Of a DNA stretch of 64,000 nt, positions 51,236-55,534 are shown piece after piece (position 1 is the stretch's first letter; every line of letters begins with the position of its first letter). The DNA comes from Armatimonadetes bacterium Uphvl-Ar1 (GTDB lineage: Bacteria; Armatimonadota; Fimbriimonadia; Fimbriimonadales; Fimbriimonadaceae): positions 2,480,001 to 2,544,000 of the forward strand of contig CP021423.1 of the NCBI GenBank assembly GCA_002162075.1. The letters are read 5' to 3'. A program made the position numbers and the translations under genes. The notes beneath the pieces were generated by a model. The model was given only the letters and a program-made list of their open reading frames with translations. It did no database searches and was not told the origin of the DNA.

Positions 51236-51667
51236 TCATTGCTTCGGAACGGCTGCGTTCTCCTGAACGACCCGCACCGCCTGCGATAAGAAAACTTGTC
51301 GTGCAATTCCCAAACTCCCCTGCCCCCGAGCCGTCTCATCTGCCACGGCTTGATCCATCGTATCTTTGGCGAACTCCATCATCTGATCTTTCTCCGGAGC
51401 AAAACTTGTCGCCCGCATCTGGGTCAGCAACTTCTTCACAAAGAACGACTCAAACTGCTCGCTCGCCTTTTCTAATTTCTTCAGTTCTGCTCGAGCATCG
51501 TCCGGCAGCTTCGCAACGTCAAACTTGCCGTCCGTCATCAAGCCGTCATAAACTTTCTCCAGCCGAGCCCGAATCTCACTTCCTCGCGGACCCAGTTTGT
51601 GGTTCATCTGGTTCTGCAAGTCACGGACAAAATCTGCCTGAATCGGCTTCACACCCGCTGGCATCAT
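51236..51667 (-). CDS. flgJ: Rod-binding protein FlgJ (N-terminal domain only)
   Basis: A 143-residue protein corresponding to the rod-cap half of FlgJ: LEKASEQFESFFVKKLLTQMRAT then MMEFAKDTMDQAVADETARGQGSLGIARQVF. The muramidase half present in gammaproteobacterial FlgJ is absent, as in many phyla, so another enzyme must open the cell wall. It overlaps flgI by four bases. Confidence 0.9.
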   Translation of the reverse strand: MMPAGVKPIQADFVRDLQNQMNHKLGPRGSEIRARLEKVYDGLMTDGKFDVAKLPDDARAELKKLEKASEQFESFFVKKLLTQMRATSFAPEKDQMMEFAKDTMDQAVADETARGQGSLGIARQVFLSQAVRVVQENAAVPKQ

Positions 51668-52887
51668 TGAATCTTCACCCGTGCCTTCAAAGCTCCTTGC
51701 TGACTCAACGCCTGAATAATCGCAATAATGTCCCGAGCGCTCACATCCATCGCTTGGAAGATCTTCGCGAGGTCATCCAACGTTGCATTCGGTGCAACGA
51801 CGACGACTTGCGGAGGTGCCTCGCCTGCATTGGTCTGAGTTACTGGCGTCACGGTCGTTGAACCTTGACTGAGCGGCAACGGCTGACTCGTCACGAACTC
51901 ACTATCAATCGTTACCCTCAGGGCACCGTGGGCAATCAGAGCCGGTCCGAGCCGCACATTGCCACCCACCACGATCGTCCCCGTCCGTTCATTGATGATG
52001 ACCGTCGGCTCCGTGTTCGCAAAAACTTCCAACTTCTGAACTTGGCTAATCACATCCACCGCCAAATCAGGACTCGGCATCTGGATCGCAATCGTCACCG
52101 CATCAATCGCCGTTACGCCCAAACTCGGGAAACTCTTCGCAATCGCATCCCGCACCCGCTGAGCTGTCGTAAAGTCGGGCTGATCCAAGTCCAAATAGAT
52201 CACCCCTTCCCCAAAAACGAATTGGGTATCAACCCCACGCTGAATGTCGCCACCGTTCGGAACGCGACCAACTGTTGGGTGGTTCATCCGCACAGAACTT
52301 CCAGAGTTGCCTGCATTGAATCCGCCGATGCTGACCGATCCACTCGCAATCGCAAACGCAATTGTTGAATCCACCATCGTCCCAAGAGGAGTGGGCAACA
52401 AAACACCCCCCTCCAAGCTCTTAGCATCTCCAATGCTTTGAACCGTAATGTCAATTTTCCGACCCGGAGCAGCGAATGGCGGCAACTCAGCTGTAACTGA
52501 GACAATCGCAATGTTCTTTGCCGTAAACTTTGTCGGATCAACCAGCGTTCCCCATCGGGTCAAAGCATTCGCCAAAGCTGTAGTGGTCGCTGGAACCTGC
52601 TTTGAATCGCCCGTTCCATTCAATCCCACAACCAGTCCATAGCCCAAAATCGTATTCGAGCGCGCCCCTCGGAATCCACCAATCGCCGCGATCTCCACCG
52701 GAATACCGTTCGTCTCTGCATTCCGAATCGCAAGCTCTCGACGCTTCTGTGCCTCTTCTTGCTGTTTCCGCTGAGCAATCGCCGCCGCTTCGTTCTCGGG
52801 AACTGCACCGCCTGTCTGAGCATGGGCCAAACCCCATACTCCCAGCAACAATCCGACCGCCAATACTTTCCATGCTACCGTTTTCAT
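51664..52887 (-). CDS. flgI: Flagellar P-ring protein FlgI
   Basis: A 407-residue periplasmic ring subunit with signal peptide (KVLAVGLLLGVWGLAHAQ). Family marks include IAAIGGFRGARSNTILGYGLVVGLNGTGDS, NIAIVSVTAELPPFAAPGRKIDITV and the C-terminal LDDLAKIFQAMDVSARDIIAIIQAL. I start at ATG 52887, which overlaps the flgH stop as TAATG. Presence of a P ring shows a peptidoglycan layer crossed by a diderm-type flagellum. Confidence 0.95.
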   Translation of the reverse strand: MKTVAWKVLAVGLLLGVWGLAHAQTGGAVPENEAAAIAQRKQQEEAQKRRELAIRNAETNGIPVEIAAIGGFRGARSNTILGYGLVVGLNGTGDSKQVPATTTALANALTRWGTLVDPTKFTAKNIAIVSVTAELPPFAAPGRKIDITVQSIGDAKSLEGGVLLPTPLGTMVDSTIAFAIASGSVSIGGFNAGNSGSSVRMNHPTVGRVPNGGDIQRGVDTQFVFGEGVIYLDLDQPDFTTAQRVRDAIAKSFPSLGVTAIDAVTIAIQMPSPDLAVDVISQVQKLEVFANTEPTVIINERTGTIVVGGNVRLGPALIAHGALRVTIDSEFVTSQPLPLSQGSTTVTPVTQTNAGEAPPQVVVVAPNATLDDLAKIFQAMDVSARDIIAIIQALSQQGALKARVKIQ

Positions 52888-53504
52888 TAGAACAACCAAT
52901 CCAAAATCGTCGTGAGAATTCCCTTGCGCTGCCGCTCGCTAATCTGACCCTTTCCTTCCATCTTGATCTCCGCCTCGGCAATCTTTGAACTCTCAATCGT
53001 GTTGTCCGGCATGATGTCCCGCTGCCGAATCGCCCCGCTCAACACAAAAGTCTGGGTGTCTTTGTTGGTCACGAGAGTCCGCCGGCCCTCAATAATCAGC
53101 GTCCCATTCGGCAAAACCTCCTTCACAACCGCACTCATCTTCGCCGTCATCCGCGAATTCTGATTTGTCGATCCGTTCCCACTTGTCGTGCTTGAAGAAC
53201 TATTGCTCAGTGGCCCCAAAAGCTGGGTTAAGAACCCCGTCAAGATATTTGGCTCCACCGACGTGCTATCCGCTTTCGCCGTTGTCGTATTCGCGGACAG
53301 ACTGCTTACCGCCTGCTCATCAATAACGATCATCAAAATGTCTCCCTTGGCCCGAGCAACATCATCAATGTAGGGATTCTTAAGCGATCCTTCATAAATC
53401 GAACCTGCATTCTCCTTCCCATTTCCGTTCTTGCTTTGATCAGCTTCTGCCCCAAAGGACCAACTCATCAATGCGAGCGCAATCACTAAACTCCAATTTC
53501 TCAT
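52887..53504 (-). CDS. flgH: Flagellar L-ring protein FlgH without lipoprotein cysteine
   Basis: A 205-residue outer-membrane ring subunit. The core has DVARAKGDILMIVIDEQAVSSLSA, the ser/Asn-rich linker, then KMSAVVKEVLPNGTLIIEGRRTL and VLSGAIRQRDIMPDNTI, which are typical. The signal peptide (MRNWSLVIALALMSWSFGAEAD) has no lipobox Cys, although most FlgH proteins are lipoproteins. The start is fixed by overlap with the flgA stop, so a missed upstream Cys is unlikely. Confidence 0.92.
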   Translation of the reverse strand: MRNWSLVIALALMSWSFGAEADQSKNGNGKENAGSIYEGSLKNPYIDDVARAKGDILMIVIDEQAVSSLSANTTTAKADSTSVEPNILTGFLTQLLGPLSNSSSSTTSGNGSTNQNSRMTAKMSAVVKEVLPNGTLIIEGRRTLVTNKDTQTFVLSGAIRQRDIMPDNTIESSKIAEAEIKMEGKGQISERQRKGILTTILDWLF

Positions 53505-54739
53505 AGTCGAACCTCAATCTTTCCTTGCTTGTTCAGCGTCCCCACAACCTGCTTCCCCGTCGATATTTGAACTGTCACTTCACCCTTCACTCGATCCACC
53601 TTCTTGATTTGCCCTGTCGTTTCAATCACAACCGCACCACTTAAAAAAGACACCGAAACCGTATCTCCAACCGCCAAACTCAAAGGCACAACACTGTTTG
53701 TAAAAGTGAGATTCCGAGAGTTGATTCGCTTACCATCCACAAACGCCGCTACCGTGACCATCAATGTCGAACCCGACTTCGCAACCCGCTCGGCAACAAG
53801 CTGTATTTCGCCAACTGGAACATCCAAGTCCGGCACCGGTTTTGTCGATTCAGGTTCAAAGCCGGGATACTGCGTTGCAATTTCTCGAACCGCCGCATCT
53901 ACAAACATCTGCTGAGTGATTGACTGCCCAACCCGCTTAATGGTGAGTCGTACTGGCCCGACAACTCGAACCGTAGCTGGTGCAAATCCTGCCGCCTTGA
54001 GCCGACCCAAAATCCAAGTCCGATCAATCTGCCTCGGAACGCCAAATACTGGAGAGTTACCAAGATCAACTGCCGCCAAACGCACCTTCAAGTCCGGTGC
54101 ACAGAAGATATCTGCCACATCTCCAAGGGTCATGAAGTTGCCACTCACTTCTGATTCATCAGGAAAAGCAATCTCAATTCCCCCCGTTGCAATCCATTCA
54201 GAATCACCAACGTGATCAGTCTTCTGACTCCGCTGAATCGCCACCACAGAATCTTCTCTACTCTTCACCGGAACTTCAACTTCCGTCTCATAAACTTTAA
54301 TAAAACTGCGCTCTGGCTCTGGAGTCGAAGAGATAGACCCCGTCCAAGGTCGAATCACCCCCGCAAGGCCCTCACCCGGTTCCTTCAACTCTGCATCGCC
54401 AAAAATCTTCAGATAGCGACCACTCTCAACTGGTCGAACATCATCAGGGAAAAGTGCCAATACTAGACGACCAGCTTCAATAACCTCATTGGAATAACCA
54501 AGCAGAACTCGGCCCCGCAGATCCACTTCGATCGACTTCGGCTCGCTTTCCGCCTTGATCTTCGGCCAAACCGGATCACCGTCCTGACTCACGATCAAAC
54601 CTTCGCGCCATTCGAGCGATACATGCTTGGCATAAATGACCGAGCCATCTTTGGCAAATCTCAGATAGCCTTCGCCGTCGACCTGGATAGCCGATGGAGC
54701 CGACAACCCAATCAAGAGAGTGCAGAGCAATGAAATCAT
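53501..54739 (-). CDS. flgA: P-ring assembly chaperone FlgA with an extra FlgG-like N-terminal domain
   Basis: A 412-residue exported protein. The C-terminal half is FlgA: a SAF-type domain (MTLGDVADIFCAPDLKVRLAAV near residue 200) and the end with LAVGDTVSVSFLSGAVVIETTGQI and KQVVGTLNKQGKIEVRL. Residues 19-125 look instead like the D1 domain of rod protein FlgG: VDGEGYLRFAKDGSV, GLIVSQDGDPVWP, SIEVDLRGRVLLG, AGRLVLALFP and LKIFGDAELKEPGEG. Usual FlgA is 220-330 residues. The fusion reading is inference by pattern. It lies between flgG and flgH. Confidence 0.88.
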   Translation of the reverse strand: MISLLCTLLIGLSAPSAIQVDGEGYLRFAKDGSVIYAKHVSLEWREGLIVSQDGDPVWPKIKAESEPKSIEVDLRGRVLLGYSNEVIEAGRLVLALFPDDVRPVESGRYLKIFGDAELKEPGEGLAGVIRPWTGSISSTPEPERSFIKVYETEVEVPVKSREDSVVAIQRSQKTDHVGDSEWIATGGIEIAFPDESEVSGNFMTLGDVADIFCAPDLKVRLAAVDLGNSPVFGVPRQIDRTWILGRLKAAGFAPATVRVVGPVRLTIKRVGQSITQQMFVDAAVREIATQYPGFEPESTKPVPDLDVPVGEIQLVAERVAKSGSTLMVTVAAFVDGKRINSRNLTFTNSVVPLSLAVGDTVSVSFLSGAVVIETTGQIKKVDRVKGEVTVQISTGKQVVGTLNKQGKIEVRL

Positions 54740-54745
54740 CAGGAA

Positions 54746-55534
54746 TTACCTCTTCAAGTTGTTCAAAATCGACAGCATGTCGTCCGATGTCTGAATTGCC
54801 TTAGAGTTGATTTCATAGGCCCGCTGAGCCGTAATCATCTTGACCATCTCCTCGACAATCTGCACGTTCGAACCCTCCAAGAAGTTCTGCTGCAAAGTCC
54901 CCGTACCTTCTTGACCCGGAGTGACAATCTGCGGCTCACCGCTCGCGCCTCCTGCCAAGTAGAGGTTTTGACCCGCCCGTGTCAAGCCCGCCGCGTTCGT
55001 AAACGTCGCAAGCTGAATCTGTCCCAATTCCGTCGGATCGTTATTTCCTGGCAAAATCGCACTGACAAAGCCTTCCGGCGAAATCGTGAGTGCCCGCGCC
55101 CCCGGCGGAACCGTCATGTTGGGGATCAACTGGTAACCATCGCTCGTAACGATCAAACCGTTTGCATCAGTTTTAAAGCTGCCATCACGGGTATAAGCCG
55201 TTTCGCCACCCGGCATCTGAATCTGGAAGAAACCGCCTCCGTTAATCGCAACGTCAGTCACCCCTCCGGTTGCCAAAAGCGAACCCATCACAAAATTGGT
55301 CGCCGAGGCCGAAAATCGCGAACCCAAACCGATCTGAGAGGACTGAGGCAATCGAGTATCACCACCCGTCGCCGCTCCCGATGCCCGCATGTTCTGGTAC
55401 ATCAAGTCTTGGAACTCGGCCCGCTGGCTCTTAAAAGCCGTGGTATTCACGTTTGCCAAGTTGTTGGCAATGACGTCCAAGTTCATTTGTTGCGATACCA
55501 TTCCGGTACCTGCTGTATTTAGTGCTCTCATCAT
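54746..55534 (-). CDS. flgG: Flagellar distal rod protein FlgG
   Basis: A 262-residue rod protein. The N-terminal D0 helix and rod signature (MNLDVIANNLANVNTTAFKSQRAEF) and the C-terminal VQIVEEMVKMITAQRAYEINSKAI are diagnostic of FlgG. The central D1 domain has INGGGFFQIQMPGGETAYTRDG. The first Met codons at 55534 and 55531 are both possible. It follows flgF after a 122-base gap. Confidence 0.96.
   Translation of the reverse strand: MMRALNTAGTGMVSQQMNLDVIANNLANVNTTAFKSQRAEFQDLMYQNMRASGAATGGDTRLPQSSQIGLGSRFSASATNFVMGSLLATGGVTDVAINGGGFFQIQMPGGETAYTRDGSFKTDANGLIVTSDGYQLIPNMTVPPGARALTISPEGFVSAILPGNNDPTELGQIQLATFTNAAGLTRAGQNLYLAGGASGEPQIVTPGQEGTGTLQQNFLEGSNVQIVEEMVKMITAQRAYEINSKAIQTSDDMLSILNNLKR

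Follow-up and report, generated by a model that had tools for sequence, protein, structure and literature searches.

The flagellar locus and the fused flgA gene

The window, i.e., the whole stretch of 64,000 nucleotides that was analysed, carries on its minus strand a flagellar locus with the gene order flgF, flgG, flgA, flgH, and flgI, and the same order was found in the relatives whose flanks were compared. The flgG gene lies directly upstream of flgA, which starts 6 bases past the end of flgG and overlaps flgH by 4 bases. The fused flgA is encoded together with flgH and flgI, as for FlgA chaperone genes, and FlgI is the expected client of its product. The genes and the parts of the fused protein are listed in Table 1. 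A hydrophobic N-terminus ahead of the D1 domain was also seen by eye in most of the aligned relatives.

Table 1. Genes of the locus and parts of the fused FlgA protein, in positions of the window.
Feature	Position	Strand	Length or basis
flgA with N-terminal FlgG-type D1 domain	53501..54739	minus	412 aa (53504-54739 plus stop)
Putative signal peptide, residues ~1-16 (MISLLCTLLIGLSAPS)	54692..54739	minus	assigned by eye; no lipobox cysteine
FlgG-type D1 domain, residues ~17-132	54344..54691	minus	profile, model, pLDDT about 96
Variable linker, residues ~133-180	54200..54343	minus	predicted disordered; pLDDT <50 at 137-169
FlgA proper, residues ~181-412	53504..54199	minus	structure match to 3vjp, TIGR03170 in relatives
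flgG	54746..55534	minus	PF22692 5e-25 and both rod-helix families
flgH (L ring)	52887..53504	minus	PF02107 1e-45
flgI (P ring)	51664..52899	minus	PF02119 7e-105

Identity of the N-terminal domain

When searched alone, the window protein matched the FlgG family TIGR02488 at 2.2e-5 and the Pfam D1 family of FlgE/F/G at an E value of 1.6e-4, which is below Pfam's cut-off. TIGR02488 was matched by 34 of 40 relatives (E 0.01 or better), and the profile of these 40 relatives found the solved FlgG chains, both crystal and cryo-EM, with E = 5e-15 over the whole D1 domain (Salmonella residues 92-224). The AlphaFold model of the fused FlgA, which was built with 40 natural sequences, had a pLDDT of about 96 in the D1 domain and mostly >90 in the FlgA part. 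Residues 14-138 of the model were aligned with the D1 domain of crystal FlgG (6jf2) with a Z of 16.6 over 125 residues at 2.5 Å, and the top structural matches of the model (Foldseek, VIA) were the D1 domains of FlgG and FlgE.

On FlgG D1 domains, taken from the window's order and from foreign genomes, the profile of the N-terminal domain had a median score of 59 bits, and on shuffled FlgG D1 domains (n=1,060) it scored no more than 4.7 bits. As the same profile reached 12-25 bits on the D1 domains of FlgF, an origin from FlgF was rejected; an origin from FlgE was likewise set aside, since only a partial domain match of 1.6e-7 or weaker was obtained. A Pfam search found the helix families Flg_bb_rod and Flg_bbr_C in the adjoining FlgG and in no part of the fused FlgA.

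We conclude with near certainty that the N-terminal domain is a complete FlgG-type D1 domain fused to a true FlgA. The profiles, the model, and the shuffle control thus bear out the sequence-only reading, which had described a FlgG-like D1 domain fused to FlgA; the span of residues 19-125 that it gave does lie within the FlgG D1 domain and is slightly short, as residues 14-138 align in the predicted structure. The check by AlphaFold that it had proposed for the N-terminal part returned a FlgG D1 fold, which refutes a SAF or an unrelated fold. Although the single window protein falls under Pfam's cut-off for the FlgE/F/G D1 domain, a convergent or chance likeness, with the domain being a normal SAF fold or some unrelated beta fold, has a negligible probability in view of the profile E value of 5e-15, the full-length structural alignment of D1, and the shuffle control.

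The fused domain shares the whole fold of FlgG D1 (6jf2, 7cbm; PF22692, TIGR02488) and the core motifs G-G-Y/F, G--L-P-I, DG-V, G-L-LA-F, and PG---G. It differs from FlgG in having a putative signal peptide in front and no D0 helices, in the loss of RDG and NP-GL, and in a charge nearer neutral.

The FlgA part

Residues 353-412 of the model were superimposed on the D3 domain of Salmonella FlgA (3vjp) with a Z of 9.5, and the profile of the 40 relatives matched FlgA 3tee with an E value of 4e-7. TIGR03170 (flgA_cterm) was matched by 31 of the 40 relatives (E 0.01 or better) and PF13144 by 28, while the match of the window protein alone to PF13144 was weak (E 0.11). Residues 353-412 correspond to the D3 domain by which Salmonella FlgA binds FlgI. 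A weak Pfam match of residues 354-396 to a phage tail-sheath domain was set aside, as it overlaps FlgA D3. At one locus of the survey (L207 in G225, 1334-2297), FlgA has an insertion of about 65 residues ahead of the C-terminal D3, and the match is split similarly in several FlgAs of other families or phyla.

Salmonella FlgA (3tee/3vjp; domains D1-D3), a periplasmic P-ring chaperone that binds FlgI and is required for assembly of the P ring (PMC4895218), has in common with the window protein the FlgA core with its FlgI-binding C-terminal D3; its N-terminal signal peptide has a putative counterpart in the window protein, recognised by eye. Unlike the window FlgA, it starts directly at its own D1 domain, with no FlgG-type domain and no long linker. 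The FlgA of Thermotoga maritima (3frn) also has an additional N-terminal domain, D0 (residues 17-84); in the structural alignment, its stretch 17-283 falls on residues 187-412 of our model and not on the FlgG-type domain, which at an rmsd of 9.5 is indicative only, and 3frn was absent from the sequence matches of the 40-relative profile. No description of a FlgA with a rod domain was found in the literature searched, most subscription journals lying outside it, in agreement with the earlier remark, whose author knew of no described FlgA of this kind. We judge the FlgA with a FlgG-type D1 domain to be an undescribed FlgA variant.

Distribution of the fusion

In the survey of the phylum, an intact fused frame was found in three related families, in 76 of their 79 genomes with FlgA, the window's own genome included. 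Of the genomes with FlgA, 70 of 72 in the window's family (f1), the single one in f3, and five of six in f5 carry the fusion, as tallied from the match table. Among the matches listed, the fused frame was not found in f2, f4, or the phylum's other sampled families. Samples from four other phyla (247, 297, 45, and 199 genomes) yielded no fusion; they were reached by a contig scan with a fragment of the FlgI consensus, as the FlgA alignment had no sufficiently conserved stretch. The sample of Pseudomonadota (398 genomes) gave no match at the threshold used in a survey that had no positive control, and it carries no weight as a negative; a fusion may exist in phyla beyond the samples, such as Planctomycetota.

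Elsewhere in the phylum, as well as in several other phyla, the joined matches from D1 to FlgA contain stop codons, flgG and flgA being simply neighbouring genes there. At two loci (G037:C3 and L206 in G122), flgG and flgA share a reading frame with one stop codon between them, a layout that could be a starting point for fusion. Seven near-complete genomes of genus g20 in f1 (G129, G130, G137, G139, G141, G142, and G144) gave no FlgA match, while other g20 genomes have FlgA; flagella may have been lost in the former.

Gain, loss, and probable source of the domain

In the tree of FlgG, FlgH, and FlgI together, f3, f5, and f1 form a clade with a support of 98, and f2 and f4 lie outside. The fewest state changes of the fusion on this tree are three, and the pattern agrees with a single gain before f1, f3, and f5 diverged and with two later losses. 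In f5, one genome (G046) is domain-less. Two other genomes, G126 and G127, have kept flgF, flgG, flgH, and flgI together with a domain-less FlgA of about 260 residues, while their sister G013 has the fusion. These losses of the D1 domain look real.

The FlgA copies form a single group in the D1 tree, with a weak support of 43 on 131 columns, and therefore the exact FlgG lineage that served as the donor cannot be told. We infer that part of the adjoining flgG was duplicated and came to lie directly after the stretch for the FlgA signal peptide, a duplication of this neighbour being the simplest source.

Selection and residue changes

The D1 domain is under purifying selection in the one unsaturated gene pair, the window gene and that of G006, more distant pairs being near saturation at silent sites. 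Its dN/dS was 0.042, compared with 0.028 for the FlgA part, and the linker had the highest value of the three mature segments, 0.098.

The FlgA copies retain a core of FlgG residues (G22, G24, Y36, P59, G76, G90, P121, and G127), and they have lost the motifs YTRDG, NP-GL, and G-NL, which show no or almost no variation in the FlgGs of the same genomes. Two arginines were gained, R27 (Q104 in FlgG) in 93% and R91 (Q172 in FlgG) in 87% of the copies, and basic residues were gained at the equivalents of FlgG positions 111, 200, and 215 in 63-77%. Like R27 and R91, the acid at D21 is newly conserved (about 30 genomes). With the rod helices and the YTRDG and NP-GL motifs gone, the fused D1 domain is not a rod subunit, and its packing in the lattice of the rod is improbable.

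Charge of the domain and the rod-facing surface of FlgI

In Salmonella, residues D109, D154, and E203 of FlgG lie on the rod surface, which faces the rings, and K63 and K95 of FlgI line the inner surface of the P ring, whose assembly needs both lysines (PMC8298488). The equivalent of FlgG position 109 is D or E in 22 of 30 FlgA copies and that of position 154 in 20 of 30, while the equivalent of E203 is L, I, or V in 27 of 30. The window copy has a non-acidic residue, R75, at the equivalent of position 154. The acids at 109 and 154 adjoin glycine in turns and may be retained for the fold alone. The FlgI equivalents of K63 and K95 are mostly conserved in genomes with and without the domain, and the rod-facing lysines of FlgI are identical in the lineages that lost the D1 domain of FlgA.

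The mean net charge is -0.3 for the FlgA D1 domains versus -6.2 for the FlgG D1 domains of the same genomes, and it is less negative in all of the 30 genomes, which are related and not independent. The difference is small in the window genome (-5 versus -6). Patches 106-112 and 200-205, which are negative in FlgG, have become about neutral or positive in the FlgA copies, while the turn at 152-156 is more acidic than in FlgG. Contact with the acidic rod would account for the reduced negative charge as well as, or better than, contact with the basic FlgI. The earlier suggestion that the chaperone could sense or mimic the rod therefore stands in part: the rod D1 fold, the acids usually kept at 109 and 154, and the conserved lysines of FlgI agree with it, whereas the charge and the residues in place of E203 do not.

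Possible role of the D1 domain

As an explanation of the whole, we propose that the gained FlgG-type D1 domain is a putative rod-like second contact that aids FlgA in holding FlgI, and we give this reading a probability of roughly 0.4. The domain would be exported with FlgA by the Sec route and, lacking D0 and the motifs invariant in FlgG, would be unable to polymerise as a rod subunit. It would help FlgA to hold FlgI by the side that later faces the rod, while the flexible linker would allow FlgA's own D3 to bind FlgI simultaneously; FlgI would then be handed to the real FlgG rod at P-ring formation. As the D3 domain of Salmonella FlgA binds FlgI with micromolar affinity (PMC4895218), an extra contact could help. 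The domain would be an aid and not a requirement, because two lineages have dropped it with FlgG, FlgH, and FlgI kept. A bolder form of the proposal, which we offer tentatively, is that a Sec-exported copy of the ring-facing rod domain fills the inside of the P-ring protein ahead of the rod itself, so that the fused FlgA would act as a place-holder chaperone. We know of no flagellar chaperone with such a rod-mimicking mechanism.

Alternatively, the domain may serve as an adaptor that docks on the rod. Being less negative and more basic than its FlgG counterpart, it would stick to the acidic nascent FlgG rod and carry the FlgA-FlgI complex to the site of P-ring assembly. The charge difference seen in 30 of 30 genomes and the basic gains at R27, R91, and the 111, 200, and 215 equivalents are consistent with such docking, and a pilot role, with FlgA guiding FlgI to the rod, has been proposed (PMC4895218). 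However, the lost motifs YTRDG, NP-GL, and G-NL might serve D1-D1 packing, attachment to the surface of the rod could bring the domain into competition with FlgI, and the acids at 109 and 154 are kept in most copies; we regard docking as somewhat unlikely. We lean slightly towards mimicry of FlgI's future partner, because the known role of FlgA is holding FlgI through D3 and because the termini of the domain would leave the ring-facing side free. Judging from the FlgG fold, where the termini lead back to the rod core, this side would indeed be accessible.

Still less probable is a spacer or stabiliser without a specific partner in P-ring assembly, which acts as a shield from proteolysis or a stand-off from the peptidoglycan and owes its retention mostly to constraints of folding. 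Such a role would agree with the two losses in genomes that kept flgG, flgH, and flgI, with a charge and surface that have drifted far from FlgG, and with the possible sensitivity of Salmonella FlgA to periplasmic proteases (PMC4895218). It is opposed by the dN/dS of the close pair, 0.04 and near the 0.03 of the FlgA part, and by the newly conserved R27, R91, and acid at D21, which suggest a specific surface.

With the second contact to FlgI as the preferred reading, a piece of the shaft protein carried by the P-ring chaperone suggests a putative way to bind the ring subunit or to find the shaft. The fused FlgA and the close domain-less lineages give a direct handle on how FlgI is delivered to the distal rod and how misassembly is avoided. 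As a free protein, the D1 domain is expected to be small and folded, and its binding to FlgI or FlgG should be measurable.

Observations on FlgH and FlgI

By eye, no lipobox cysteine stands behind the signal peptide of the window FlgH, and many relatives are alike; FlgH of Salmonella is a lipoprotein. A link between the domain and a basic residue at position 34 of FlgI was rejected, as it is confounded by ancestry and the domain-less G046 keeps the basic residue. FlgI also has an N-terminal extension at the junction of signal peptide and core, helix-like by eye, of ~23-54 residues in f1 and shorter in f2-f5. A link of this extension with the domain was likewise rejected, since the extension is long mainly in one family and persists in two domain-less genomes.
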